A DNA stretch of 64,000 nucleotides from Planctomycetes bacterium MalM25 (GTDB lineage: Bacteria > Planctomycetota > Planctomycetia > Pirellulales > Lacipirellulaceae): NCBI GenBank assembly GCA_007745835.1, contig CP036424.1, positions 4,265,968-4,329,967 on the forward strand, written 5' to 3'. Each line of letters starts with the position of its first letter. Within the stretch, counting starts at the first letter, position 1. The notes beneath the pieces were generated by a model, which worked only from the letters and a program-made list of their open reading frames with translations, was not told the DNA's origin and made no database searches. Below, piece after piece: positions 14,073 through 26,545 of this stretch. Both the position numbers and the translations under genes were made by a program.

Positions 14073-15125
14073 CTATCCGTCCGCGACGGCGGCGGCCACC
14101 GCGCGTACGGTAGGTTCTGTTTGGGTTAGGGCGGAAACCGATTCGCCAGCCGCACTCACAACCGCAGCCGCTGACAAGGGATCTGGAGTGACGTCGACGG
14201 CCACCGCATAGACGTGGACTGACTCCCCGCCATCGTTGAGCGCTTTTACCGCGACCTCGTAGAGACCAACCCCAAGACCGCCCGTGTGAAATTCGCCGCC
14301 AGACACTGTATCGGTGACTTGATCCGCGGCGATTAAGAGACTGTCAAGGTAGACGTCACCGAGCAACGCGATGGCCCCGTTGCCATAGGCATCCCAGGCG
14401 CCTGCCGTCCAGGCGACGATGCGACCGTTGAAAGTCGCTGTGGGAGAGGTCGTGTTGGTCGGTTCCGGACCGAGGAACAGTTCGGACACGTAGGCGTTCG
14501 AAAGTGCCGTATCGAACGTCAGCAGCTGGTCGATCTGTCCGGTGAAATAGTGCCCCGGGCCACCAGAATGCTCAACGCCCAGGTGATCCCGGTAGTCGCT
14601 CTCCGATCCGCCGATCGACCCGGAGTTGTTCCCCGCGGTTGAGAAGAGAGTTGGGTGGGCGATAGTGGCAACCTGCTGACCGTCAACAAGCAGGGTCATC
14701 TGCTGACCGTCAACCCGGACCGTCACATGAACCGAGTCGTTCTCTCGGCCTACCAGGTCGTGCGAGACAACTTGGCCGTTGTAGCTATTGGACCAAACGA
14801 AATGAAGCATCGAGTCGCTGAGCAAAACGCTCCAGCCATAAACGTACCCTCCCGATTCGATCAGAACTTGCTGTCCCACTAGCGATGCCGTCCGCAGCCA
14901 GAACGCCACCGTAAATTGATTCCCCACCGCTAAGACCGCTTGCGAGGGGTAGAACGTCGCGGTGGAGCCATCGAACTCCCCGGCATCCGTCAGCCAAGGA
15001 CGGAGCGAGATACCCGACCCCGTCAGAGCGTCCGTGTCATCACGGAACGAGGCGTCGACTACAGACCAGTAACTCATCTTCCCCTCACCGGTTTGATAGA
15101 GATCGACTGACGGGGGTGCGACCAC
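14073..15125 (-). CDS. LamG/concanavalin-like domain protein of the phage cassette
   Basis: A 350-residue protein with a laminin-G/concanavalin-type jelly roll at about residues 45-220. Typical strands are FDGSTATFYPS, FTVAFWLRTASL, VHVTVRVDGQQMTLLVDGQQVATI, and GQIDQLLTFDTALSNAYVSELF near the domain end. The C-terminal ~130 residues form a second beta-rich region ending in Ala/Val-rich low complexity. Such domains bind carbohydrates or proteins, so a surface spike or receptor-binding role on the particle is likely. The start is unsure: GTG at 15125, or ATG at 15077, which is preceded by GAGGGG. Placed directly downstream of the capsid gene. Confidence 0.7.
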   Translation of the reverse strand: MVAPPSVDLYQTGEGKMSYWSVVDASFRDDTDALTGSGISLRPWLTDAGEFDGSTATFYPSQAVLAVGNQFTVAFWLRTASLVGQQVLIESGGYVYGWSVLLSDSMLHFVWSNSYNGQVVSHDLVGRENDSVHVTVRVDGQQMTLLVDGQQVATIAHPTLFSTAGNNSGSIGGSESDYRDHLGVEHSGGPGHYFTGQIDQLLTFDTALSNAYVSELFLGPEPTNTTSPTATFNGRIVAWTAGAWDAYGNGAIALLGDVYLDSLLIAADQVTDTVSGGEFHTGGLGVGLYEVAVKALNDGGESVHVYAVAVDVTPDPLSAAAVVSAAGESVSALTQTEPTVRAVAAAVADG

Positions 15126-15161: not shown

Positions 15162-16325
15162 CTACCCAGTGCACTTTACGACATAGCGTGGGTTGATCAC
15201 CGCGGCGGCTCCCCGCTCGCTTGCTTTGAAGCGGAGGACCACGTCGTTGGTGAACTCGGCCTCGCTGCCCAGCGGAGCCTGCGTGACCGTGATCGGCCAG
15301 TTCTCCATATAGGCGAACGCCTTGCGGAAATCGCCGAGGAACCACCACTTCTTGGCCTCTTCCGCCGCCACGCCCGAGGCGATCACCCGACGGTACGCCA
15401 GGCGGCTCTCTTTGACCGCATAGTTGCCCAACGGGTTGGCGGCGACCGTCGCCGTCTGGCCCCCTGTGGGCGTATAAGAGATCTCGGTCGCGTTGAACGT
15501 CCGATGGGCTGCGTGCCGGTAGGCGGGCATCACCAGGGCGGTCGTCGCCCCCAGGAGTACAGGCTCCCCTGTCGCCGGGTCGAGCATCTCGGCGAAGAGC
15601 TGCTCGGCCGCATCCACGCTGGTCCAGTCGACCAGCTCGTTACCCGTCAGGACATTATCCCAAGGCCCGGCTGTCTGGTAGGTATCGTACGCAACGCCCT
15701 TGTGGTTGTAGTTGTTGGACACACCAACAATCAGATCGAGAATCCGCTTCTCTTTGTTGATTCCTAAGACCTCTCCCACCTCGGCCGCCCGACTGAGAAT
15801 CAAATTGGTGCGGTCGAAGAAGATCGCCTCCTTGGTGACCGGCACAATGAAGCCGTGCTTGGCGGTCGCCGGGGTCTCGATGTAGTCCTCGTCGAAACCG
15901 AGATTCGGGTAAGGCATGCCGGGAGCGACTTCATCTACCTGATCGCTGATCCGCGTCACGCCCGGAATCTTCTCGCCGTCGAGCCGTGTGGGGACGGTTT
16001 CGACCAAGCGAGAGGCGACGAAAGCCTCCTGGGTATAGGCCTCCAGGATCTTCGCGTGGATCACCTCGGCGGTGACGTTCTGGAACGCGGTCGCATCGAC
16101 GCCCTCGCCCGCTTCGAGCAACGGCGTCACCCCGCCACCTCGGGGGTCGAGCGTTCGCACCCACTCACGCCCGTCGGGGATCAGTGCTTCCGCCAGATCA
16201 CGGAGACTGAAATCATCGGGCCTGAGGCTCTTCTCATTAAGCGCTTCGCTCAGGTGCTGGACAGTCTTGCTGGGACCGTCGAGTTCGTACCGGCGGCGTA
16301 GCTCTCGATAGTTCAGTAGGGGCAT
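15162..16325 (-). CDS. Phage major capsid protein
   Basis: A 387-residue protein with the features of a tailed-phage (HK97-fold) major capsid protein. It has a helical N-terminal region (to about residue 85) that may be removed on maturation, then a beta-rich core including DYIETPATAKHGFIVPVTKEAIFFDR, a long spine helix region, and a C-terminal segment WWFLGDFRKAFAYMENWPI typical of capsid proteins. The start ATG is preceded by AAGGTGAT. Position between a decoration-like gene and the LamG gene, downstream of portal and protease, matches standard head-gene order. Family assignment is from context and overall pattern rather than one diagnostic motif. Confidence 0.75.
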   Translation of the reverse strand: MPLLNYRELRRRYELDGPSKTVQHLSEALNEKSLRPDDFSLRDLAEALIPDGREWVRTLDPRGGGVTPLLEAGEGVDATAFQNVTAEVIHAKILEAYTQEAFVASRLVETVPTRLDGEKIPGVTRISDQVDEVAPGMPYPNLGFDEDYIETPATAKHGFIVPVTKEAIFFDRTNLILSRAAEVGEVLGINKEKRILDLIVGVSNNYNHKGVAYDTYQTAGPWDNVLTGNELVDWTSVDAAEQLFAEMLDPATGEPVLLGATTALVMPAYRHAAHRTFNATEISYTPTGGQTATVAANPLGNYAVKESRLAYRRVIASGVAAEEAKKWWFLGDFRKAFAYMENWPITVTQAPLGSEAEFTNDVVLRFKASERGAAAVINPRYVVKCTG

Positions 16326-16372
16326 TGTTTGATCACCTTGTGGATTGACTGATTCTGAAAGACGTTCCGGGA

Positions 16373-16846
16373 CTACTCACGGTCTTGAGGACCACCCCGC
16401 ATGACCGAACTGACGACCTCAATCAGCACACGGGTCGAAGCGACCGACGCCTGCTTCGCGCATCGTCCGATGGCGGCAGAGAGTGACGGTGCGCTGACCA
16501 CCCTTTGGTCGTACAGCTGCACGCCTGATCCATCGATCTGTGTCGAGGCGGGAGACCCCAGCTCCCAAGTCACCGAGTCGCAGTCGAACTCGAAGACACC
16601 CGATGTTGCGATTCGGATCGTGGTCTCCTCATCGGAGGGAGACGCCTGCATCGCGACGCCAACGAAGCTGTCTTGAAACGTTTGTTGATTGAGTGTCGGC
16701 GATCCCTCATCTGGCATCGCCGAAGCGGGGGCGCCAACGCCGGAGTTCAGGTAGATGAGATCCCCAATCTCGACCGCAACCCCATCGGCCACCGGGAGCG
16801 TGACCGGGTTTGTGTCGCCGTAACGCCATCGCATCGTGTTCGCCAT
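16373..16846 (-). CDS. DUF2190-like capsid decoration protein
   Basis: A 157-residue protein, mostly beta strands. The start MANTMRWRYGDTNPVTLPVA and the segment VEIGDLIYLNSG fit DUF2190-type proteins, which sit as decoration or stabilisation proteins on phage heads and are usually encoded just before the major capsid gene, as here. A GGAG precedes the ATG at good distance (cttggagtgagat). No membrane segment. The order protease - this gene - capsid is the classical head-module order. Confidence 0.7.
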   Translation of the reverse strand: MANTMRWRYGDTNPVTLPVADGVAVEIGDLIYLNSGVGAPASAMPDEGSPTLNQQTFQDSFVGVAMQASPSDEETTIRIATSGVFEFDCDSVTWELGSPASTQIDGSGVQLYDQRVVSAPSLSAAIGRCAKQASVASTRVLIEVVSSVMRGGPQDRE

Positions 16847-16899
16847 ATCTCACTCCAAGGGAAAGTAGTTGTATGTGGTAGTCGCCAGCCGTTCGGCGG

Positions 16900-17802
16900 C
16901 TACCCGCGTCGTGACAGCGCGGCGACAAACTGGGCCGTGTCGGTAGTCGGCGTTTCATCGGCGACCACGCTTTGTTCGCGGCAGGCGAGGTGGGGCGCCG
17001 AGATGGGTCGCTTAACCAGGCAGACGCGGTCCTCGATCAGCGGAGCCAAGTCATCCTCTCCGGCTTCCATCAACAGCCGAACGAACCCCTCGGTCAGCAC
17101 CGCCTGCACCGCCTCTTCCTCCAGCCCATGCTCCTCAACTAGCTGGTCGATCCGACGCCGTCGGTGCTGACGCTCCAACTGATCGCGCAGCTGATTAAGC
17201 TCTTCGCGGAGCTGATAGTTCTCCTCAACGAGCGTCTCAGGCCGGGGCTCATCCTCGGATTGTGGTGCGGTATCCGGATCCCGGCACGCTTCAAAGAGCC
17301 CGCCCGTCGTCGCCGGGTCAGCTACGAGATCAACGCTCTGAACACGCGTGATCGCCTCGACGACCAACTCGTCCGCCTCGCGCCGTGTTCGAGCCATAAC
17401 ATTGTGTGAAAGACCGACATTCTCAGGCGCGTGCTCGGCGTCCCAAGCGAGCTGCTCGGCCAGAGCGTGCCGCGGGTTGTAGTGCAGATCGCCAAACAGC
17501 CCGTCGCCCCGTGTGTAACGGACGTTGCGCACCACCCCCAGTCGGTCGCGGTAATCGCGAGGGGCCAGAGGGTCGCGTGTCGGGTGATTGACATTAACCT
17601 TCGATCCCTCATACAGACCGATTGCGTCTCGGAGCGCCTTTTCGGCGTAGCGCCGTCCGTTCCGAGAACGGAGCCCGAGGAGTTTCACGCCACGCAGCAC
17701 ACCCCGCGTCGCCTCGGAGCGGAGTGTCTGCCCCGCCGAATCGACGTACTCTTGAACGGCCTGCGGGGTGTCTGAGGAGTCATTTAGAACGGCATGGGTC
17801 AC
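16900..17802 (-). CDS. Prohead protease/scaffold-like protein
   Basis: A 300-residue protein. The N-terminal ~185 residues look like a phage head-maturation protease domain with the hallmarks VNVNHPTRDP, HNVMARTRREADELVVEAI and RVQSVDLVADPATTGGLFEA, which match herpesvirus-type/Mu-I-like protease-scaffold proteins. A charged coiled coil (about 190-235, LVEENYQLREELNQLRDQLE) follows, as expected for an internal scaffold. The GTG start at 17802 is chosen because AGGAGG lies ten bases upstream; a longer in-frame extension lacks such a signal. A strong hairpin (17831-17882) stands just upstream of the start. Confidence 0.7.
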   Translation of the reverse strand: MTHAVLNDSSDTPQAVQEYVDSAGQTLRSEATRGVLRGVKLLGLRSRNGRRYAEKALRDAIGLYEGSKVNVNHPTRDPLAPRDYRDRLGVVRNVRYTRGDGLFGDLHYNPRHALAEQLAWDAEHAPENVGLSHNVMARTRREADELVVEAITRVQSVDLVADPATTGGLFEACRDPDTAPQSEDEPRPETLVEENYQLREELNQLRDQLERQHRRRRIDQLVEEHGLEEEAVQAVLTEGFVRLLMEAGEDDLAPLIEDRVCLVKRPISAPHLACREQSVVADETPTTDTAQFVAALSRRG

Positions 17803-17830
17803 CTTGGGATCGCCTCCTAGGCAAAAGAAA

Positions 17831-17882
17831 AGCCCGCAACCCACGAACAGCTCCCTTACAAGGGGCTCGTGGGCAGCGGGCT
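17831..17882 (-). terminator. Long nested hairpin with T-rich tail inside the head operon
   Basis: Read on the minus strand this is a near-perfect nested hairpin. The outer stem is AGCCCGC/GCGGGCT, the middle stem CCCACGA/TCGTGGG, and the inner stem CCCTT/AAGGG around a short loop. It is followed by TTTTCTTTTG. It lies after the 62-residue gene and just before the prohead protease gene, so it should end or attenuate transcription between the packaging genes and the capsid genes. Its arms and apical GTAAG resemble the hairpin in the cassette leader at 26546-26631. Confidence 0.7.
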
Positions 17883-17943
17883 CGAGAGGGATGCCTCTCA
17901 GCCGTGGGCGGAGAGGCTCGGCTCGATGCCGAGTGGTTCGTTG

Positions 17944-18132
17944 TCAGCGGACGACGCGCTCGGTCGTTACGCGGACCTGCTGGATGAAGCCGTCTTGTAC
18001 GTTCATCGAGAGCGTGACCGTGCCGTAGTACCCTCGCTGCGAAGAAGCCGCGAGGAGCTCCGCAAAGGCGGCCTGGGCGTCGCTTGCGCGACCTTTGGAT
18101 GCGCCACCTGCCTGTCCTGATCCGTTTCGCAT
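17944..18132 (-). CDS. Small DUF2292-like hypothetical protein (62 aa)
   Basis: A 62-residue protein beginning MRNGSGQAGG, with a helix (AQAAFAELLAASSQ) followed by a compact beta unit GYYGTVTLSMNVQDGFIQQVRV. This resembles the small strand-strand domain of DUF2292/YezD-type proteins, whose function is unknown. It sits between portal and protease, where phages often place a small head accessory. The ATG at 18130-18132 is preferred over an upstream TTG because a TATAAT box lies exactly where it would make the ATG the first transcribed base. Confidence 0.55.
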   Translation of the reverse strand: MRNGSGQAGGASKGRASDAQAAFAELLAASSQRGYYGTVTLSMNVQDGFIQQVRVTTERVVR

Positions 18133-18167
18133 AGGGGCATTATACAACTCGGCTTCGCAGGCTCCGA
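18133..18167 (-). promoter_or_regulatory. Possible promoter giving a leaderless transcript
   Basis: A perfect TATAAT (18139-18144, minus strand) lies six bases before the ATG of the 62-residue gene, so transcription would begin at or next to the start codon. The -35 position (TCGGAG or TTCGGA) is poor. An AT-rich hexamer is notable in this GC-rich region, but a chance match cannot be excluded. Confidence 0.3.
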
Positions 18168-18185
18168 ATCGCTTTGGCCACTTTC

Positions 18186-19577
18186 TTACTTCGACGGCGG
18201 CGCCTCGCCGTGTTCTGAATGCACTCGCCGATTCTGTTGCTCCTGGTCGTAGTCGAGGCCGAGGCGCTGACTCCAGGTTTGAGTTGAGAGGACGCCGTTG
18301 CGATGTGCGATCTCATCCACCGCCGCATCGGATGCACGGTCACGGCTCTGCAGCGTAGGCGCAATGATCTGCAGCTCGATCGTGCTTGTCACTTCGACTG
18401 GCAAACGTCCCGCATGGATCGCGTTGTCGATCACGACTCGCATCACTCGCCGGTCCTGCTCGATCATCGCCGCCTGGGACCGCTCGAACATCTTGAAGGC
18501 GGGTCCTTCGGCCACGAGGGTCGAGGCGTAGCTGGCGTTCGAGGCGTCGGACGTGAACATGAACTCCGGCATAACCAGGCGTGAGGCGATCGCTCGCAGC
18601 TCCGCCTGCAAGATCGCCACGTAACTCGCCGCGTCGATGCCGGTGGCGGGGAAGTCGTACTCGAGGCCAGCCGGGGCGTCGAGAATCGTGCCGGGGCCGT
18701 ACTCGGTGACTCGTTTCGTACGGCCAGAGCGGTCGAGCGCGGTCGCGGAGGAACGATCCGCAACGAACTGCTCGACACCGACACGAGACGCGCTACGGTG
18801 CTTGCGGATCAGCGCGATCGCCGACTGAATTTCTGCGACCACACTCATGTTGCGAAGCAGCTTCTCCGCCCGGCGAAGGTTGGCCCGCACTGGGGTGTAG
18901 AGTGGCAGTCCGCGCCTCACATTGCGGTCGACGTTCGCCTTGCGGTGCTGGATCTCTCGGGCGTCGATCTGCTGACCATCGACGTAGTAGCCGAGGACCG
19001 TCTCGACGTCGCGATCGTCGGTGACGACTCCCTGCCCGGCGGCTAGCTGCGTGGAGGCCCCCTCCGGTGGCGCCACTTGATCCGGTTCGATGAACCGCAC
19101 GCGTGTCATACCGTGTCCGTCGGGGAAGTAGCGAAGAAAGACTTCCCCGTCCCGATCGAGCCGCCGGACGATCTCCTGCTGCCGGTCGTGCCAGGCGTTC
19201 TCCTCCAAGAACTCGTCAACGACCTGCTGGGTCTGATTGGCGAGATCGATCGAGGCGTCCTGGCCCTTGCGGACCGTCGCGTGGTAGACGTGGCCGGAAC
19301 CAACGATGTAGCTGATCCGGTTCTCATGGCCGTTGATGGCGAATTCATTCGTCAGCGCCAGTCGGCGGCAATCGGCACGAACCTCCGCCAACCGCGCTCC
19401 CGATAACGTCGCGCGGACGCCTCGATCCGAGGGCAAGCCGACCGGCTCCCAGAGACCTACGTCATCGCCGGCGTAGGCTTCGCGTGGATCGACGTAGTCG
19501 GCCCACAAGCCATCAAAGGTTTCGAGCAATCGGCTCTCGAGTTGCAGCAAGCGCTGCGTCGCGGTCGCTTCGCCCAT
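18186..19577 (-). CDS. Phage portal protein (lambda gpB family)
   Basis: The portal ring at the capsid vertex through which DNA enters and leaves. The 463-residue protein has the lambda-type pattern: an Arg-rich N-terminal region with LTNEFAINGHENRISYIVGSG, DREGDGEVFLRYF-like motif (RRLDRDGEVFLRYFPD), EPDQVAPPEG, GYYVDGQQIDAREIQHRKANVD, and the later block GLEYDFPATGIDAASYVAILQAELRAIASRLVMPEFMF, of which PEFMFTSDASNASYAS is a portal signature. The start ATG is preceded by GGAGACATTC. Directly downstream of the terminase large subunit, as usual. Confidence 0.9.
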   Translation of the reverse strand: MGEATATQRLLQLESRLLETFDGLWADYVDPREAYAGDDVGLWEPVGLPSDRGVRATLSGARLAEVRADCRRLALTNEFAINGHENRISYIVGSGHVYHATVRKGQDASIDLANQTQQVVDEFLEENAWHDRQQEIVRRLDRDGEVFLRYFPDGHGMTRVRFIEPDQVAPPEGASTQLAAGQGVVTDDRDVETVLGYYVDGQQIDAREIQHRKANVDRNVRRGLPLYTPVRANLRRAEKLLRNMSVVAEIQSAIALIRKHRSASRVGVEQFVADRSSATALDRSGRTKRVTEYGPGTILDAPAGLEYDFPATGIDAASYVAILQAELRAIASRLVMPEFMFTSDASNASYASTLVAEGPAFKMFERSQAAMIEQDRRVMRVVIDNAIHAGRLPVEVTSTIELQIIAPTLQSRDRASDAAVDEIAHRNGVLSTQTWSQRLGLDYDQEQQNRRVHSEHGEAPPSK

Positions 19578-19615
19578 GAATGTCTCCAGGTCGTTGAAAG
19601 GCGGGGGGCTGATTG

Positions 19616-21202
19616 TTAGAGCGTGTCGAACTCGAAACCCGATTCATCCTCGCGGGTCCGCCAAACCTCCTCGGCGAGGCGGAGCGCCATCTCCAGAGCG
19701 TCGGGTCCATCGTCGTGAGAACCGACTGGGAACTCTCGCAGCTGATCGACAAGCAGCGCTGTTGAATCCGACCCTCGTTTGAACCGGAGGCGTCGCTGCG
19801 ACAGGTACGGACCGAGCCTCTGGATACGGACCGCCTTGTTCGTGTGGTTGTGGATCTCGCACGGCGACCGACCCGGCAATCCCTGGCGATGGCTCTCGGC
19901 GACGAACTCACCGGCGAGCAACTGCTGCCACTGGTTCGCTTCGACACCGAAGGCGTCCGGTCGGAACGCCCGGCAACGGGCCACGCTGTCGGCGACCATC
20001 TGAGCGACCGGGCGTCTCGCGAGATCCGCCTCGACGTGCAGGACCCCGTCGCCATCGACTCCCAACAGTACAATTGCCGAGTAATCCCCGTGTCGGGCGT
20101 CGTTCCCTTTGCTCGGGTCGAGGGCAATCACCCGCAGGGTGAGTCGCTCTGGCCAATCATCGAACCAGACCGAGTCCTCGAAGTAGGACTCGGGCCATTC
20201 GCATCGCTCCGGATCTGATGGGGAGCCTTGTTTCTCACGCTCGAACGCGCCGTGCCCCCCTTCAAGCCTCAACCGCATGAGCGTGTACAAGTCCTCTTCA
20301 TCGGGCCACAGCACTTCAGCGCCGCGGTTCATCTCCTGACGATTCCGCTCGTAGAACGCCTGAGCCTCATCGGCAGCGTTCGGTTTCTGGGAGTCGCAGT
20401 AGATCGTCTCCCAGTCTCGCCAGAGCTCCATCGCGTCGGGCCAGCGGACAATCGACTGGAACGTGCGCGACCGCCAACCAGGTGCTTTGGTTAGCCTCAT
20501 GGCGAGCGCATCGCGGTGCAAAGCGGTCGCCACGTTGACGACATTGGTCCGCTTCGTTCCCGACTTCATGAGGGCGCCGTGGAACCATTCTGTCGAGCTC
20601 TCGCGCAGCACAGGCGACACGATGTGCTGGTCGTTCTGCAGGTCATCACACAGGATCAGAGAGGGGCGGTTGGCCCGACGCCGGCGCCCGCGGAGACGTT
20701 GGCCAACGCCATACGCCTCAATGACCACCCCGTTGCGGAGCTCGACCCCCGCGGATCGCCAGCGCGGGCCACGTCCTACCGTTGCCGGGTAGGCTTCGGC
20801 GAGTCGCTCGTTCTCTATCAACTCAGCCTTCACGTTCTCGAGGTGCGCCTGGGCTTGGGATTTGGTATCGGAGATGATCCAGATGTACGGTTCGTCCGCT
20901 TCGACCGCGCTACGCAGCACGCCGGCGAGGGTGGCGACGGTTGACTTGGCAGCGCCGCGAGGCCCGACAACATTCACTTTCGCGCCCCGTTCGGTCCGCA
21001 TGCGGTCCATCTGCTGAGCCAGCCATCCGTGCAACGCTGAGGGGGATTTCCGGAAGTGATTCGGGAGGTAATGTTGCGCCCACAGGAGCAACGACTGGTC
21101 GGGGTCGCCGTGGGGATCGATGGGGTCTTTCGAAAAAGCCTGCCCGATCGCCGCGTGCAGCACCCGGGCCACCCGGGCCTCGGCTGCGGTGCTGGAATCC
21201 AT
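19616..21202 (-). CDS. Terminase large subunit
   Basis: The packaging motor and nuclease that fills phage heads. From the ATG at 21200-21202 (preceded by AGAGGGA) it is 528 residues. The ATPase half carries Walker A GPRGAAKST (80-88) and Walker B LILCDDLQND (from 182). The C-terminal nuclease half shows RVIALDPSKGND with the first catalytic Asp and later acidic residues (HVEADLARRP; DDGPDALEMAL). A long Arg-rich linker lies near 165-180. Located between a terS-like gene and the portal gene. All motor motifs look intact, so the protein could be functional. Confidence 0.9.
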   Translation of the reverse strand: MDSSTAAEARVARVLHAAIGQAFSKDPIDPHGDPDQSLLLWAQHYLPNHFRKSPSALHGWLAQQMDRMRTERGAKVNVVGPRGAAKSTVATLAGVLRSAVEADEPYIWIISDTKSQAQAHLENVKAELIENERLAEAYPATVGRGPRWRSAGVELRNGVVIEAYGVGQRLRGRRRRANRPSLILCDDLQNDQHIVSPVLRESSTEWFHGALMKSGTKRTNVVNVATALHRDALAMRLTKAPGWRSRTFQSIVRWPDAMELWRDWETIYCDSQKPNAADEAQAFYERNRQEMNRGAEVLWPDEEDLYTLMRLRLEGGHGAFEREKQGSPSDPERCEWPESYFEDSVWFDDWPERLTLRVIALDPSKGNDARHGDYSAIVLLGVDGDGVLHVEADLARRPVAQMVADSVARCRAFRPDAFGVEANQWQQLLAGEFVAESHRQGLPGRSPCEIHNHTNKAVRIQRLGPYLSQRRLRFKRGSDSTALLVDQLREFPVGSHDDGPDALEMALRLAEEVWRTREDESGFEFDTL

Positions 21203-21218
21203 ACCGTCCCTCTCTTCC

Positions 21219-21683
21219 TTATGGCGTTGTTCCCTCTTTCTCATCAGGCGAATGCTCGACCAACAACGGGTCGGACAGGGATTCACCCGCTTCTTTCAGC
21301 CTGTTGAGCACGCGCTCTCGATCTTCGGTATCTCGCAACAACCCGGCGAGATCTCCGGACAGCTTCGATAAGAAGCCCACCAGGTCGCGGCGGCCGACGG
21401 CGCCGGCGTCGCGGCGGGCGTACCGCTCGGGCAGCCGTCGCTCCAGCCACCAGACGCTGGCCCGCCAGTGCCGCTCGTCGCGGGCGGCTTGCTGGATATT
21501 CCGCATGTGGGCCAGCTCGCATCCCGCCTCGGCTCGACGCAACTGTTCCGCGAAATCGGGTTCTCCGTAGGCGGTCGCGTTGAGCTGCTGCAGGCTACAA
21601 CCGATGTACTTTGCGGCCGTCTCACGGTCGCAGCCGACCGACGCGATCAACAGCGCCTCGCGTTTCTGCTCGTCCGTCAGCAT
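21219..21683 (-). CDS. Terminase small subunit-like protein
   Basis: A 154-residue protein starting MLTDEQKREALLIASVGCDRETAAKYIGCSLQQL, which reads as a helix-turn-helix of the type used by small terminases to recognise packaging sites. Further helices follow (ELAHMRNIQQAARD; WRASVWWLERRLPERYAR) for oligomerisation. GAGGAGG precedes the ATG. Its first bases overlap the end of the ABC-GNAT gene by 7 bases, and the large terminase starts 16 bases after it ends. Position plus HTH make the call likely. Confidence 0.75.
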   Translation of the reverse strand: MLTDEQKREALLIASVGCDRETAAKYIGCSLQQLNATAYGEPDFAEQLRRAEAGCELAHMRNIQQAARDERHWRASVWWLERRLPERYARRDAGAVGRRDLVGFLSKLSGDLAGLLRDTEDRERVLNRLKEAGESLSDPLLVEHSPDEKEGTTP

Positions 21684-22798
21684 GGCGGGGCGTCCTCCTC
21701 TGGCGCACCAAGATACTCGAACGACACGACCGATCTTCCGGCCGAGTTCCGATAGGTCGTGAACGCGGTTCGGCGTCGCGAAGCCGCTTGCCCGGTCCGC
21801 TTCACCGCCACCACCCGCCAGCGCGATGAGCGGTCGCAGTGCCGGATCAACGCGGGGTGGCTGCTGGTGACGTTCACTCGCAGGCCCTCTTCGCGCTGCA
21901 CCTCGGCGACCGCTTCGACGGTTCGCATCCCGATACCAATCCCCTGGTAATCCGGCAACGTGACGATCCGTGTGAAACGCCGGCGCCCTTTGCGCCCGAT
22001 GATCGGTAGCGTCGCCGCGAAGCTAACCGGCTCGCCGTTCCAGGTCGCCAGGTAGCACATCGCCTGCGGAGCGATCGAACCGGTCAGATAGTGATGGCGC
22101 GCAAACAGCCGCCAAGCCGCCACTCGGCAACGATGGATTTCCAGACCGATCCGCGGTCGTCGAAGACGCCTCCGGGTGAGGCGTCCGGTAGCCATGTCGA
22201 GCACCCAGTCGGGCTCGAGCCACTCCGCAATGTCGTAGTGGCAGGTCACCGCCACGAAGCGGCATGGCAGGTCGCCCCGCCGAACGCCCTTCGCGATGGC
22301 CGCCGAGCAGACGCGGGCGACGTTGCGATCGACCACGCTGGTGAATTCATCGAACGCGAGGACCGGCTTGGTCTCCCCAGCCGCCTCGCATCCCGCGGCG
22401 AGAGCACGCGCCAAGTCGCAACGGAACTTCTCCCCGTTGCTGAGCACCGCATAGGGTTTCACCCACGAGGGGGGCGAGCCGAAGCCGACCGAGGTGAATA
22501 GCTCCACGACCTTCCGCACGGATGTGTCCCCGAAGCAGTCGATGACCGCGCGGTCCTCGGGCCAGGGCTGGGCTCGATACAAGTCGCCGCCGAACGCTTC
22601 GCGGGCGATGGTCGACTTGCCGCTGCCCGAGGGACCGACGATCAGGCCGATCGACCACTCTTCGTCGGGGTCGGGCGTCTCGACCTCGAACGAGGCGCTC
22701 GATCGCTCGCCGAGCGGCACGTCGAACATACCGGCGACCTGTTGCACTCGGAACGATTCATGGACCGGGCAGTCCACGGTGACGCTGAGCTGGGGCAT
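21677..22798 (-). CDS. ABC-type ATPase fused to GNAT acetyltransferase (COG2401-like)
   Basis: A 373-residue two-domain protein. The N-terminal ABC ATPase has Walker A GPSGSGKS (55-62), a signature-like LSNGEK (119-124), Walker B LAFDEF (147-152) and an H-loop His187. There are no membrane helices, so it is not a transporter. The C-terminal GNAT domain (about 219-345) has RHHYLTG (234-240), strand MCYLATWNGEPVSFAA, and the acetyl-CoA loop QGIGIG (285-290). This is the architecture of COG2401, whose function is unknown. Phage Mu Mom, a DNA-modifying enzyme, also has a GNAT fold with an HY motif, so nucleic-acid modification is a reasonable guess. It lies between ParB-like and terminase genes. 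Confidence 0.8.
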   Translation of the reverse strand: MPQLSVTVDCPVHESFRVQQVAGMFDVPLGERSSASFEVETPDPDEEWSIGLIVGPSGSGKSTIAREAFGGDLYRAQPWPEDRAVIDCFGDTSVRKVVELFTSVGFGSPPSWVKPYAVLSNGEKFRCDLARALAAGCEAAGETKPVLAFDEFTSVVDRNVARVCSAAIAKGVRRGDLPCRFVAVTCHYDIAEWLEPDWVLDMATGRLTRRRLRRPRIGLEIHRCRVAAWRLFARHHYLTGSIAPQAMCYLATWNGEPVSFAATLPIIGRKGRRRFTRIVTLPDYQGIGIGMRTVEAVAEVQREEGLRVNVTSSHPALIRHCDRSSRWRVVAVKRTGQAASRRRTAFTTYRNSAGRSVVSFEYLGAPEEDAPPC

Positions 22799-22821
22799 TG
22801 CGTTCTCCTGCTGGATATCTG

Positions 22822-23373
22822 TCAGAGGGTGAGGACACGACAGCGGTAGCCGTCGCCGTGGAGTCGCTCGTAGACCTCGCGTTGTTGCTCTTCGCCATCG
22901 ACCTCGACGACGACCTGATAGCTCGGCTTGATCTCGATCTCGGGCGGCTCGGGGACGAGGGACTCCTCGCTGATCTGCCGGCCGAGATGGCCTAGCATCT
23001 CGCGGACGGCTTCGGCGTCGGTCTCGGCGCGACCGAGCAGGTCCGCCAGCCGGGTGTCGTCGACACCCGCCAGGGCGCCGAGTGGGTCGTACGTCAGCAG
23101 CAGCTTCTCGGCCTCGCGGTCATCCAGGTCGAGCACCAACACCGGCACGGTCGCCGAGGGGTTCGACTGGGCGCGTAGATGGCCGTCCAGTAGCTGCAGT
23201 TGACCGTCGGGGAGTTCACGCACGAGCAGGGCGCCCGCCATGCCGAGTTCGCTGAGCACCCCCCGCCAGACATCCTGCTGATGGCGCGAGTGCGTCCGCC
23301 AATTCTTTGGGTGCGGCTGCAGGTCGCCCGCTCGGACGCGGCGTAGTTCTTTGACACGGTCGCGGATCTTCAT
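22822..23373 (-). CDS. ParB-like nuclease/CTPase-domain protein
   Basis: A 183-residue protein with a ParB-N domain: VRAGDLQPHPKNWRTHS, a later LLDGHLRAQ (the GHxR-type box) and a short helical segment LLLTYDPLGALAGVDD. The C-terminal ~60 residues are a separate small alpha/beta piece (SYQVVVEVDGEEQQREVYERL). Phage ParB-like proteins act as nucleases, CTP switches or partners of DNA-modification enzymes. It is coupled by ATGA to the gene upstream and is followed 23 bases later by the ABC-GNAT gene, implying joint action. Chromosome partitioning is unlikely because parA is absent. Confidence 0.82.
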   Translation of the reverse strand: MKIRDRVKELRRVRAGDLQPHPKNWRTHSRHQQDVWRGVLSELGMAGALLVRELPDGQLQLLDGHLRAQSNPSATVPVLVLDLDDREAEKLLLTYDPLGALAGVDDTRLADLLGRAETDAEAVREMLGHLGRQISEESLVPEPPEIEIKPSYQVVVEVDGEEQQREVYERLHGDGYRCRVLTL

Positions 23374-23612
23374 GGGAAGGGTCTCCGGGCGATGACACGC
23401 ACGTCCGACTGCAGGAGGCTGACGCTCTGCTTCAAGCCGGCGAGTTCGGCGTCGACGGCTGCCAAGCGTTCGCGGTTGGTTTGCGCGACCTCGTGGACCT
23501 TGTAGAGCGTCGCGCCGGCCAGCGTCAGCGACGCCAGGGCGAGCGAGCAGAGCCCGCCCCAGTCGGCGGGGGCGAGTCGGACGCGGTCGGGGTTCTCGGG
23601 GGTTCGGACCAT
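23370..23612 (-). CDS. Small single-helix membrane protein with coiled coil (80 aa)
   Basis: An 80-residue protein with one hydrophobic helix (GGLCSLALASLTLAGATLY, about 20-38) followed by a charged coiled coil (VHEVAQTNRERLAAVDAELAG, about 40-75). The layout is that of a holin-accessory, spanin-like or anchor protein. The ATG at 23610-23612 is chosen because the upstream in-frame sequence is Arg-rich and non-coding in character. It overlaps the ParB-like start by ATGA. The 130 bases before it show nothing recognisable. Function is inferred only from topology. Confidence 0.6.
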   Translation of the reverse strand: MVRTPENPDRVRLAPADWGGLCSLALASLTLAGATLYKVHEVAQTNRERLAAVDAELAGLKQSVSLLQSDVRVIARRPFP

Positions 23613-23742
23613 CGTGAGCGGATCGAGCGAGTTAGGGATCGAGGCGGCATGACACAGCGGGGGGCGTGCCTCGCGGGCGGCCCGTCTCGTGGCCGGCGAG
23701 CCGTCGGCCGACGCGGGACGCCCCCCGCACGACGCGCAACGA

Positions 23743-24582
23743 CTACGGGCCCGGGGCGGGCGGGATGATCGGTCCGCCCGCTGACGCCGCCCCCCCGCTG
23801 CCGGAGCCACTGATCACGCCATCGATCCGGTTGTCGGAGTAGAAGCTCGACAGGTTCGTTGGCCACGGGCCGAGGTCCGCAGGCAGGTCGGTGATCGGGA
23901 TCCCTTCGGCGAGCAGCTCGAGGCGGTCTTCGGTGAACACCCGGTCGAGGCGAGGCACCGTGTCGACCATCTCGGTCGACGTGAAGAACTGCGATGGGTC
24001 GTACGCGGCGAGGTCCGCGTCGGAAAGGACGAAACCCTGGGCGCTCGCTTCATCACGCGTCTTGCCGAACAGCTCGATCGCCATGTTCACGTAAACGCGT
24101 CGCAGATACTGGCCGACCTGTCCGGCGAAGGCGGTCGAGATCTCCATTTCCTTGCGGTTCTCGGTGTGCTGCATCGCCTCGGCCAGCGAGACAAGCACCA
24201 TGGCGGACCAACGACGCAAGAAGGGGTTGCGGACCTTAAAGAACGGCACCGGGTAAACCCGGAAGACCTCGCCCGCGGGGCGAGAGTGCAGGGCCTCCAT
24301 GTTGTCCGTGCCCGGGGCCACGGCGCGGCCGGCGAGGATGTTCGCGGCGCGGAGGTAAAGCTTGTGGACGCGTTTGCAGGTGTTGATCGATGGCGGGATA
24401 CGGAGATCGACGTCCTCGTGATGCATCACGTGGAAGAGGTTCCGGCCGACCAAGTCGACCCAATCAAGGATCTGTGGGTTGAGGCTCCCCACGTCGTTCG
24501 ACCAGTTGGGAACCGCGTAGCCGGCGTCGCCAAAGACGCCGACCTTGTACCAAAGAACCGCATCGGTGTTCGTGAGGGGCAT
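23743..24582 (-). CDS. Hypothetical cassette protein, possibly structural (279 aa)
   Basis: A 279-residue soluble protein starting MPLTNTDAVLWYKVGVFGD. It has no signal peptide, no membrane helix and no motif I recognise. It has a helical middle and ends in a Gly/Ser/Pro-rich tail (SGSGSGGAASAGGPIIPP). The start is set at the ATG 24580-24582 because further upstream the frame runs into the trypsin-like gene on the same strand. Placed between the secreted protease and the small membrane protein. It could be a virion component or the target of the neighbouring protease; neither is shown by sequence. Confidence 0.6.
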   Translation of the reverse strand: MPLTNTDAVLWYKVGVFGDAGYAVPNWSNDVGSLNPQILDWVDLVGRNLFHVMHHEDVDLRIPPSINTCKRVHKLYLRAANILAGRAVAPGTDNMEALHSRPAGEVFRVYPVPFFKVRNPFLRRWSAMVLVSLAEAMQHTENRKEMEISTAFAGQVGQYLRRVYVNMAIELFGKTRDEASAQGFVLSDADLAAYDPSQFFTSTEMVDTVPRLDRVFTEDRLELLAEGIPITDLPADLGPWPTNLSSFYSDNRIDGVISGSGSGGAASAGGPIIPPAPGP

Positions 24583-24632
24583 GGCTAGCTTGGGGTTGGA
24601 AGACTGACTGGGAGGGGAGCGGGGCGGCGGCT

Positions 24633-25913
24633 TCAAGACTCGGGAGTACCGTTCATCTGCTGCTTGATGAGCGAGTCGAGACTCGAAAGCATCTCGACCG
24701 AACCGGGGAACTTCCGCGCGAGCTGCTCGCACGCCCACTGGTGGGCACGGGCGAACTCGTCGCGTTCGTAGGAGACGTAGTGCGTCTCCGGCACGACGCG
24801 TTGCGGCGGCGGTGGCGAGTCGACGGCGATCGGTCGCTGGCTCTCCTCGTGCACCCGGCGGGCCCGCCGGCGACGCCAGAGCTTCCACGCCAGGACCGCC
24901 GCCGCGGCCGTCGGCGCCCCCCCCGCCAGGGCGGCGAGCATCGCCCGCCGTGAGATCCAATCGCCAAGGCTCTGGCGAGTCGTTGGCGGCGCGGGCGGCT
25001 CGCTGACAGCGGACTGGCTAATTGACTCCAGCCGAGCGAAACGATGCTCCCAGGCGATCGAGAGCCGATTGAGATCGTCTCGACGGAGCAGGTCGGTCGG
25101 CAACGCGGGCGCTGGCCGGCTGGCGAGTCGCCCCTCGACGGCTTGCTTCCAATCCCCACAGTCGCAGCCACGAGGCGTCTCCTGGTTGCGGGCCACCGGA
25201 GTGAGGGGTGGGGTCGGGCGGGGTGAGCTGCTGATGAGGCGAGACACGCGCTCCAGGATCTTGCGGAGCGGCTCGCCGCCCATCGCGTAGGTCTCTCCGC
25301 CCCGTTGGCCCCAGATCACCGCGACCAATCGTCCACGCGGGTCGAAGACCGGCCCGCCGCTGTCGCCGGAGCGGACAGCGCCGCGGATCCTCACGCTTGC
25401 GAACCGCGCCCCGCTGGCGGTCGCTCGGCCGACGACCGGTCCGCGAACACAACGGAAGACGCCCGTCCCGCCGAAGCCGCACGCGGCGAGTTCTCCCTTC
25501 GGTTCCACGGCCGCGACCCTGACGGGCTCGCCACGTTGCGAGGACGTTTGCAGCAACGCGAGGTCATGCTCGCGATCGATCGCCACCACGCGAGCCGCCG
25601 CCGTGACGCCGCCCAGGACGACACGCGTCTTCCCCGGGCCATCGAACAGGTGGGCGCAGGTCAGGAACCAAGAGCCTCGTTCGTTGGTCGCGATTAATGC
25701 ACCCGAACCGACCGAGGAGCCGGCGCCCTCATCGTGGACGATCCGAACGACCGCCCGGCGGAGCGTGGCCGGGAGTCGGGAAGCGGGGGCTTCGTTAACG
25801 ACCTGGCGGGGGGGAGCGGGACGAACGTAGCAGCCGCTGGGGCCGCATTGCGATTCGGCGATCGTCGCTCCGCCCAGCCAGGCGAGCAGCGTCAGCAGGG
25901 TGCTTAGGAACAT
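24633..25913 (-). CDS. Secreted/membrane-anchored trypsin-like serine protease in the phage cassette
   Basis: A 426-residue protein with an N-terminal signal peptide (MFLSTLLTLLAWLGGATIAES) and a chymotrypsin-fold protease domain at about 45-220. The catalytic triad is complete: His88 in LTCAHLFD, Asp117 in REHDLALL and Ser185 in RSGDSGGPV. A Pro-rich linker follows, then a hydrophobic segment (about 335-355) and a basic stop-transfer RRRRARR, then a ~70-residue cytoplasmic-type tail. The topology suggests an envelope protease with its active domain outside the cytoplasm. The location, 3 bases after a papain-like gene and inside a head cassette, is unusual; lysis or virion processing is possible. 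Confidence 0.82.
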   Translation of the reverse strand: MFLSTLLTLLAWLGGATIAESQCGPSGCYVRPAPPRQVVNEAPASRLPATLRRAVVRIVHDEGAGSSVGSGALIATNERGSWFLTCAHLFDGPGKTRVVLGGVTAAARVVAIDREHDLALLQTSSQRGEPVRVAAVEPKGELAACGFGGTGVFRCVRGPVVGRATASGARFASVRIRGAVRSGDSGGPVFDPRGRLVAVIWGQRGGETYAMGGEPLRKILERVSRLISSSPRPTPPLTPVARNQETPRGCDCGDWKQAVEGRLASRPAPALPTDLLRRDDLNRLSIAWEHRFARLESISQSAVSEPPAPPTTRQSLGDWISRRAMLAALAGGAPTAAAAVLAWKLWRRRRARRVHEESQRPIAVDSPPPPQRVVPETHYVSYERDEFARAHQWACEQLARKFPGSVEMLSSLDSLIKQQMNGTPES

Positions 25914-25916
25914 GCG

Positions 25917-26495
25917 TCACTCCCCCGCAAAGGTGTAGCGGTACTCGTAGAAAGGGCTCCGCGCCAGGTCGGCAGGCTCCGTCAACCGGTCGGCCAGGTA
26001 CGGCGCCGGATCGACGCCGCCCGCCAAGCGGTCCGCCATGGCGCATGCCTGGCTGCAGAACGGCGGCCGTTCACTCACCGTGCGATCCTCGACCTCGGCC
26101 GTCATCCAGGTGCGGACAACGGGCAGATGCAGCAACGCCGCCGAGAGCACCGCGCCGTAGCCGTAGTCGCAACCGGCGAGCTCACGCATGTAGCGTGTTG
26201 CGGCGGCCGAGTCGTACTCGGGCCAGCGGCCATCGGGGTTCGCGCGGAACAGGTCGATCCGGCCCGGGTTGCGGTTAATCTGGCTGGCGAGCGTGACGGC
26301 GCGGCCGCCGTACCACTCGCGGACTTCCAGGCAGAAGGGCGTGTCGCCCCACCAAGCGACCTTCGCCGCGTGGGAGTGCACGCCCCGCCCCGCGATCGAG
26401 ATCAGACCGCGTCGGCGGAACAGCAGCAGATCGCCGTCTCGCAGATCGCACGCGACGTGCTCGAGCCGCACCAGCTTGCGCAGGGGTAGCGCCAT
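25917..26495 (-). CDS. Papain-like (NlpC/P60, YiiX-type) hydrolase
   Basis: A 192-residue protein of the permuted papain-like type. The block RDGDLLLFRRRGLISIAGRGVHSHAA contains the putative catalytic His (His40 or His42), Glu57 lies in CLEVREW, and the nucleophile is probably Cys147 in PPFCSQACAMAD. A LAGCDYGYGAVLSAAL block is typical of YiiX/NlpC-like proteins, which cut peptidoglycan peptides or acyl/amide bonds. No signal peptide is apparent, as in many phage lysins that need a holin. It is the first gene of the cassette. The ATG at 26493-26495 has GGAG six bases upstream. Confidence 0.75.
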   Translation of the reverse strand: MALPLRKLVRLEHVACDLRDGDLLLFRRRGLISIAGRGVHSHAAKVAWWGDTPFCLEVREWYGGRAVTLASQINRNPGRIDLFRANPDGRWPEYDSAAATRYMRELAGCDYGYGAVLSAALLHLPVVRTWMTAEVEDRTVSERPPFCSQACAMADRLAGGVDPAPYLADRLTEPADLARSPFYEYRYTFAGE

Positions 26496-26545
26496 GGTTC
26501 GCTCCGGGAGGGGAAACAACCTGGGGGCGTCGCCTCCAACGAAAA

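Follow-up and report, generated by a model that had tools for sequence, protein, structure and literature searches.

The window analysed here is a 64,000-nucleotide stretch of the 4.72 Mb genome of Planctomycetes bacterium MalM25 (GCA_007745835.1, contig CP036424.1, positions 4,265,968 to 4,329,967), and it contains a short set of phage-like head and packaging genes on the minus strand. In gene order, these encode a ParB/Srx-fold protein of 183 aa (22822-23373), an ABC-ATPase fused to a GNAT acyltransferase domain (ABC-GNAT, 21677-22798, 373 aa, ATG start), the terminase small subunit (TerS, 21219-21683), the terminase large subunit (TerL, 19616-21286), a portal protein of the lambda family (18186-19577), a small ORF, a head-maturation-protease-like protein (16900-17844; phrog_15531, E 1.6e-05), a decoration/cement-like protein (16373-16846; weak, below the Pfam cut-off), and the major capsid protein (15162-16325; Phage_capsid_4). 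The ParB-like and ABC-GNAT genes are 23 nt apart, and the ABC-GNAT stop overlaps the TerS start by 7 nt. An earlier note, made from the sequence alone, described a ParB-like gene followed by an ABC-ATPase-GNAT fusion next to terminase, and this description is confirmed.

The fusion protein matches the phage family phrog_11143, which has no assigned function, over nearly the whole profile (residues 6-368 to profile positions 3-354 of 357, E 2.9e-104). Walker A (GPSGSGKS), a signature-like LSNGEK, Walker B with DEFTS, an H-loop (CHYD), and the GNAT motif QGIGIG are all present, and their key residues are conserved in an alignment of 50 sequences, consisting of the window protein and 49 loci picked from 111 distinct full-length sequences (8 of 150 loci gave none). 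In Pfam searches, Acetyltransf_1 scores above its cut-off (25.5 vs. 20.7 bits), whereas ABC_tran stays below (20.4 vs. 25 bits). The AlphaFold2 model (pLDDT 88.8, pTM 0.84) nevertheless supports both halves, with structural matches by VIA-align to an ABC domain over residues 1-212 (Z 14.4, rmsd 3.0, 183 residues) and to a GNAT over residues 215-365 (Z 14.9, rmsd 3.6, 137 residues). The ABC nucleotide-binding domain thus spans residues 1-213 (22160-22798) and the GNAT domain residues 215-365 (21704-22156). No transporter membrane family was found among the ORFs scanned, although no membrane prediction was run, and acyl-CoA binding and acyl transfer were not assayed. The note had also brought in COG2401 for such fusions; a COG profile was not compared, and a literature search for this name returned no paper in the partial library searched.

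The ParB-like protein scores below the Pfam cut-off for ParB_N (PF02195; 13.5 vs. 26.3 bits), but some of its relatives pass it (e.g. at the loci numbered L183 and L182 here), and it matches PHROG ParB families (best E 1.3e-8). Its model (pLDDT 94.1) matches the ParB-CDP structure 6sdk over residues 5-141 (Z 13.2, 132 residues, rmsd 3.4), which supports a ParB/Srx fold; parS binding, a CTP switch, and a partner ParA, as in chromosome or plasmid ParBs, were not examined. The protein consists of the ParB/Srx domain (residues 5-137, 22963-23361) and a C-terminal module (residues 140-183, 22825-22956), the latter not covered by the structure comparison. Three of its four closest phage hits are annotated as "DNA methylase" or "methyl transferase", and we initially considered these to be ParB-methyltransferase fusions. 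However, the two inspected are CDSs of 243 and 249 aa, about half of which is covered by the ParB-N profile, and as no family search was run on the remainder, they are not used as evidence.

The gene is widely kept in the window's order, where a match at E ≤ 1e-30 occurs in 92 of 147 genomes and 54 of 82 genera, mostly at one locus. At least nine genomes of one family (f7) lack it. In 40 stretches of 12.6-20 kb around the gene, from 38 genomes, TerL is found in 36, portal in 35, capsid in 29, and ParB in 38 by tblastn and in 39 by profile search, while second copies in two genomes lie in stretches where no TerL or portal was found (L149, L150). Across 22 relatives, namely those among the best HisS matches that also had a cassette locus, the median identity to the window is 65.6% for ABC-GNAT, 65.2% for the housekeeping HisS, 74.5% for the capsid, and 54.0% for ParB, the last two in fewer or equal numbers of genomes. 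In 13 of 22 genomes where both genes share a contig, ABC-GNAT lies 15-24 kb from hisS, in five genera, an old shared position in this family. Distance matrices agree with those of HisS only to a limited degree (Mantel 0.25 for ABC-GNAT, a weak correlation reached by 0 of 1000 permutations, 0.27 for ParB, 0.26 for TerL, 0.44 for portal, and 0.45 for capsid; at most 4 of 1000 permutations reach any value), so some exchange or rate noise is likely. Eighteen motif positions are kept in at least 116 of 120 planctomycete sequences; conservation counts leave out sequences under 300 aa, and dN/dS was not calculated. Although the absence of a match in 55 of the 147 genomes and the lack of any known virion product would fit an unused prophage remnant, the HisS-like identity, the intact motifs, and the shared position near hisS make this very unlikely. 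A broader survey of the phylum gave matches in 265 of 292 genomes, but these are mostly weak hits to the ATPase part, with 22 genomes having a match of 190 bits or more by our reading of the list, and this tally is not used.

A missing ParB linkage in relatives had been named in the note as grounds for rejecting its proposal, but the linkage was found. A ParB-family hit lies directly upstream in 71 of 73 named genomes and in 69 of 69 close IMG/VR loci with at least 600 bp upstream. As these counts mix the ParB/Srx domain and the C-terminal module of about 45 residues, above all in the formyltransferase-containing clade described below, they were recounted by module for loci with at least 600 bp upstream. 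Of the close IMG/VR loci, 68 of 69 have both in one ORF and 1 has ParB only. Of the named genomes, 68 of 73 have both, 2 ParB only, 1 the module only, and 2 neither. In the wider IMG/VR set, 54 of 133 have both, 71 the module only, 4 ParB only, and 4 neither, and of the phage records, 9 of 18 have both, 2 the module only, 1 ParB only, and 6 neither. The phage records used (19 of 51 with a hit) were chosen for diversity. In the Komp_PAO1_1 and Porphyromonas phages, the upstream hits are only the C-terminal module. In many Mu-like phages the module is a free mini-protein before ABC-GNAT (42 and 49 aa in two annotated phages; phrog_28816, E 4.5e-10 and 1.1e-21), whose gene overlaps the ABC-GNAT start by 4 nt in these two. 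The module was found in 4 of 4 ABC-GNAT-linked phage ParBs tested, but in 0 of 5 ParBs associated with Mom, a fused methyltransferase, or neither. Thus, in a correction to the note, the ParB domain is optional and the C-terminal module is the more constant partner. In our reading, the ParB domain is a generic partner of DNA-modifying enzymes and the C-module the ABC-GNAT-specific dock.

The same ParB domain is also found with other enzymes. A viral scan seeded with the ParB-N of an ABC-GNAT partner, of which the best 80 of 238 loci were kept, gave 63 loci where it is fused to a methyltransferase-like domain, 7 with Mom next, 4 with C-module plus ABC-GNAT (one being the seed's own record), 5 with none of these, and 1 that is cut. 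In MW202867, a ParB-N 70% identical to the seed is fused to N6_N4_Mtase, where the C-module and ABC-GNAT would otherwise follow, and sits one gene before terminase. A second scan, seeded with the Mom of Microbacterium phage Pickles13, gave 80 loci, and 71 of 71 with enough upstream sequence (9 were too short) have ParB-N directly upstream, none with the C-module. As this Mom was known to follow ParB, and the first scan was seeded from an ABC-GNAT partner, these fractions hold for these samples only. Modification of tRNA or rRNA, or a role as a GNAT toxin, is very unlikely with gene neighbours that are DNA packaging, replication, and DNA-modification genes. TmcA/Kre33 RNA cytidine acetyltransferases also combine an NTPase with a GNAT acting on a nucleobase, with another ATPase class and an RNA substrate, and a 90S pre-ribosome chain, which is Kre33, was among the Foldseek hits (rank 34, TM-scores 0.28 and 0.17); they were not compared as relatives.

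The strongest single piece of evidence for a Mom-like role comes from two Mu-like phages of Porphyromonas gingivalis. In Mu, Com and Mom lie at the right end. Phages 011a and 015a share gene order and one block of 94.5% identity over 22.7 kb plus five more of 92%-99.7%, but at the right end 011a has the mini-protein, ABC-GNAT, and a formyltransferase, whereas 015a has Mom (PF25680, E 5.9e-56). Of the last 2,144 nt of 011a, only the first ~116 and the last ~91 nt give more than short chance matches to 015a, which is a third-party assembly from a metagenome bin. In addition, of 41 long records with ABC-GNAT, 13 have a detected Mu transposase C domain (8 above the family cut-off), and in 13 of 13 ABC-GNAT lies in the last 1%-5% when the transposase, at 5%-34%, is put on the left. 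The other 28 gave no transposase hit, but one of them, Komp_PAO1_1, has an annotated Mu-type transposase and carries ABC-GNAT mid-record. Aeromonas phage PX29 encodes both a Mom relative and ABC-GNAT, so the two are not always alternatives. The exchange and the shared slot were observed in phages of another clade than that of the window, for which support comes from family membership, the ParB partner, and the place before terminase.

Despite this shared slot, no sequence homology to Mom was detected. The window protein gives no Pfam hit to PF25680 at E 0.1, and hhalign comparisons with two profiles gave probabilities of 0.3% and 0.1%, although the Mom profile is thin. PF25680 was also absent from the 41 records, but as this search, including its control, returned no hit anywhere, absence is not proven. 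A [H/K]HY...R resemblance between Mom and ABC-GNAT is by eye only and is not used as evidence. Mom also lacks an ABC domain. The note had further named, as a result that would count against it, a structural comparison pointing to an ordinary protein acetyltransferase without a nucleic-acid-binding surface. The nearest GNAT folds include the RimI, Ard1, and NatC protein acetyltransferases, but the fold does not give the substrate, and neither nucleic-acid binding nor electrostatics were computed, so this comparison does not decide the point. ABC-GNAT may alternatively acylate a protein, such as terminase, capsid, or a host protein like RNA polymerase, to control packaging or takeover, in line with these fold matches, its overlap with TerS, and a phage GNAT, Rac, that acts on RNA polymerase (PMC7824862). 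We consider this unlikely, as it does not explain the swap with Mom, the right-end slot, or the ParB domain shared with DNA methyltransferases and Mom, and in five phage stretches no terminase is annotated near the gene, which in two of them lies beside replication genes.

The position relative to terminase, which counts in favour of a DNA-modifying role, also allows another reading. ParB and ABC-GNAT lie a few genes before terminase in Pasteurella, Streptococcus, Lactococcus, Leptospira, and Gordonia phages, and the ATPase and ParB, with its fold and possible nucleotide switch, could act as a DNA-loading or pac-site licensing machine for terminase, with a regulatory GNAT domain and no base modified. 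This also appears unlikely, because the GNAT glycines of the acyl-CoA motif stay conserved in the three sets examined, Mom and methyltransferases take the place of the module, and in the Mu-like Porphyromonas phage it lies about 17 kb from terminase. Against a DNA-modifying role, the GNAT motif glutamine is replaced in the Pasteurella and Leptospira proteins.

A third gene is found in part of the family. A Formyl_trans_N protein directly follows ABC-GNAT in Komp_PAO1_1, a Porphyromonas phage, and the Gordonia phages Sisko and NHagos, and in 107 of 133 assessable loci of the wider IMG/VR set (17 more lacked sequence), but in 0 of 76 of the close set (4 more lacked sequence). The formyltransferase clade was sampled partly with a seed from that clade, so these fractions apply to this sample only. 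On a tree of 89 rows, 45 of them a random draw, the formyltransferase is one change and one clade (SH-aLRT 100), which does not include the window, whereas the partner type changes 9 times. Position 260 is H in 99% of that clade's sequences and F in 88% of the others examined, and H236 is Y in 33 of 75 formyltransferase-clade sequences, 75 of the 111 formyltransferase-positive loci remaining after the 300-aa length filter. In 36 of these 111 loci, ABC and GNAT lie in two overlapping ORFs, the second always in the same relative frame, so the two halves can be separate subunits. The third gene implies different chemistry in this clade. Formyltransferases of this fold formylate amines, so this clade may, speculatively, transfer an aminoacyl group that is then formylated.

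Taken together, ABC-GNAT is likely an ATP-driven DNA nucleobase acyltransferase and a functional counterpart of phage Mu Mom. The GNAT domain would transfer an acyl group from an acyl-CoA to an exocyclic amine of a DNA base, and the ABC domain would dimerise and use ATP to grip, move on, or distort DNA. Somewhat less confidently, the ParB/Srx domain would supply DNA- or nucleotide-dependent targeting, and its C-module would dock on ABC-GNAT; no complex was predicted. This interpretation rests on the gene organisation, folds, intact motifs, conservation, linkage, and swap with Mom, all of which were observed, while the chemistry, the base, the docking, and the link to packaging are inferred, with no activity, base, or DNA binding measured. 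Among the publications consulted (PMC7824862, PMC10853773), PMC7824862 describes Mom as a DNA modifier of the GNAT superfamily and cites Iyer et al. 2013 for the prediction that a GNAT coupled to an ABC ATPase acylates a DNA base; its named example, Tenacibaculum phage pT24, is among our hits. The C-module, formyltransferase, Mom swap, and planctomycete cassette are not mentioned there, although the 2013 paper may mention some of them. Our findings turn this short prediction into a concrete, testable system, raising the questions of which base, which acyl group, and why ATP, with the two closely related Porphyromonas phages as a natural control pair.

The note had proposed that the pair could modify, mark, or license the packaged DNA, or protect it from restriction, and this is only partly supported: the evidence favours DNA modification, but a specific tie to packaged DNA is inferred only. 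Tentatively, the operon ParB, ABC-GNAT, TerS, TerL of this planctomycete may modify DNA about to be packaged by a resident, long-kept phage-head cassette, so that it survives restriction in a recipient. Gene transfer agents likewise have a short, chromosomally kept head and packaging gene set, but only head and packaging genes and conservation were examined here, without a genome-wide search for tail genes, and no transfer, particles, or tail genes were shown. A more far-reaching possibility, also tentative, is a further class of phage DNA-hypermodification system, an ATP-driven nucleobase acyltransferase with a modular adaptor, of which one clade adds a formyltransferase to make an unknown formylated (amino)acyl base, and which planctomycetes of this order have fixed in a gene-transfer-agent-like head cassette that chemically marks the DNA it packages. 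Literature searches on phage formyltransferases in connection with GNATs and DNA modification, and on domesticated phage head genes in planctomycetes, returned no paper in the partial library searched. Retention beside packaging genes across much of a bacterial order would be an unusual case of a captured phage head gene set keeping its own DNA-marking enzyme, relevant to how transferred DNA escapes restriction.

Full-length matches to phrog_11143 are also found for the Komp_PAO1_1, Porphyromonas, and Pasteurella proteins, whereas the window copy is chromosomal. In a PADLOC search, only the ATPase part resembles MADS Mad3 (E 3e-11), which we judged uninformative. Finally, PanD is encoded next to ABC-GNAT in Jace and an ASCH domain occurs in MismyG, both single cases that carry no weight.

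The head cassette at 15162-26519 of the window, with a trypsin-like protease (24633-25913) and a 200-aa protein (25917-26519), is syntenic in many relatives, as seen by comparison with the 40 stretches around the ABC-GNAT gene in related genomes (L111-L150). Of the seven genes tested, the gene at 25917-26519 tracks HisS best (Mantel 0.67). No tail gene was recognised among the ORFs scanned. Just after the capsid gene, the window encodes a LamG/concanavalin-like protein (14073-15125) that was found in only 2 of the 40 relative stretches, at 30% identity, and that is possibly a surface-binding part.

Formyltransferase genes directly follow ABC-GNAT in four phage stretches (L188, 5110-5727; L190, 6125-6598; L185, 1814-2464; and L281, 1826-2473), one of them deposited as 'tRNA-methyltransferase'. 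Gordonia phage Jace (stretch L181, 9098-9523) has an aspartate decarboxylase (PanD) directly after ABC-GNAT. In addition, ABC and GNAT appear as two adjacent ORFs (stretches L186, L182, L192, L278, L276, and L282, and also L390, L395-L400, L463, and others) in several phages and in 36 of 111 formyltransferase-positive loci, in the latter always with the same frame relation, indicating either split genes or a programmed frameshift.

Five of the ParB-N loci surveyed (L502, L513, L532, L574, and L576) had no methyltransferase, Mom or ABC-GNAT found next to them, and these may hold other DNA-modifying enzymes. Aeromonas phage PX29 (stretch L189 and GU396103.1, 36309-36881) carries both a Mom relative and ABC-GNAT.
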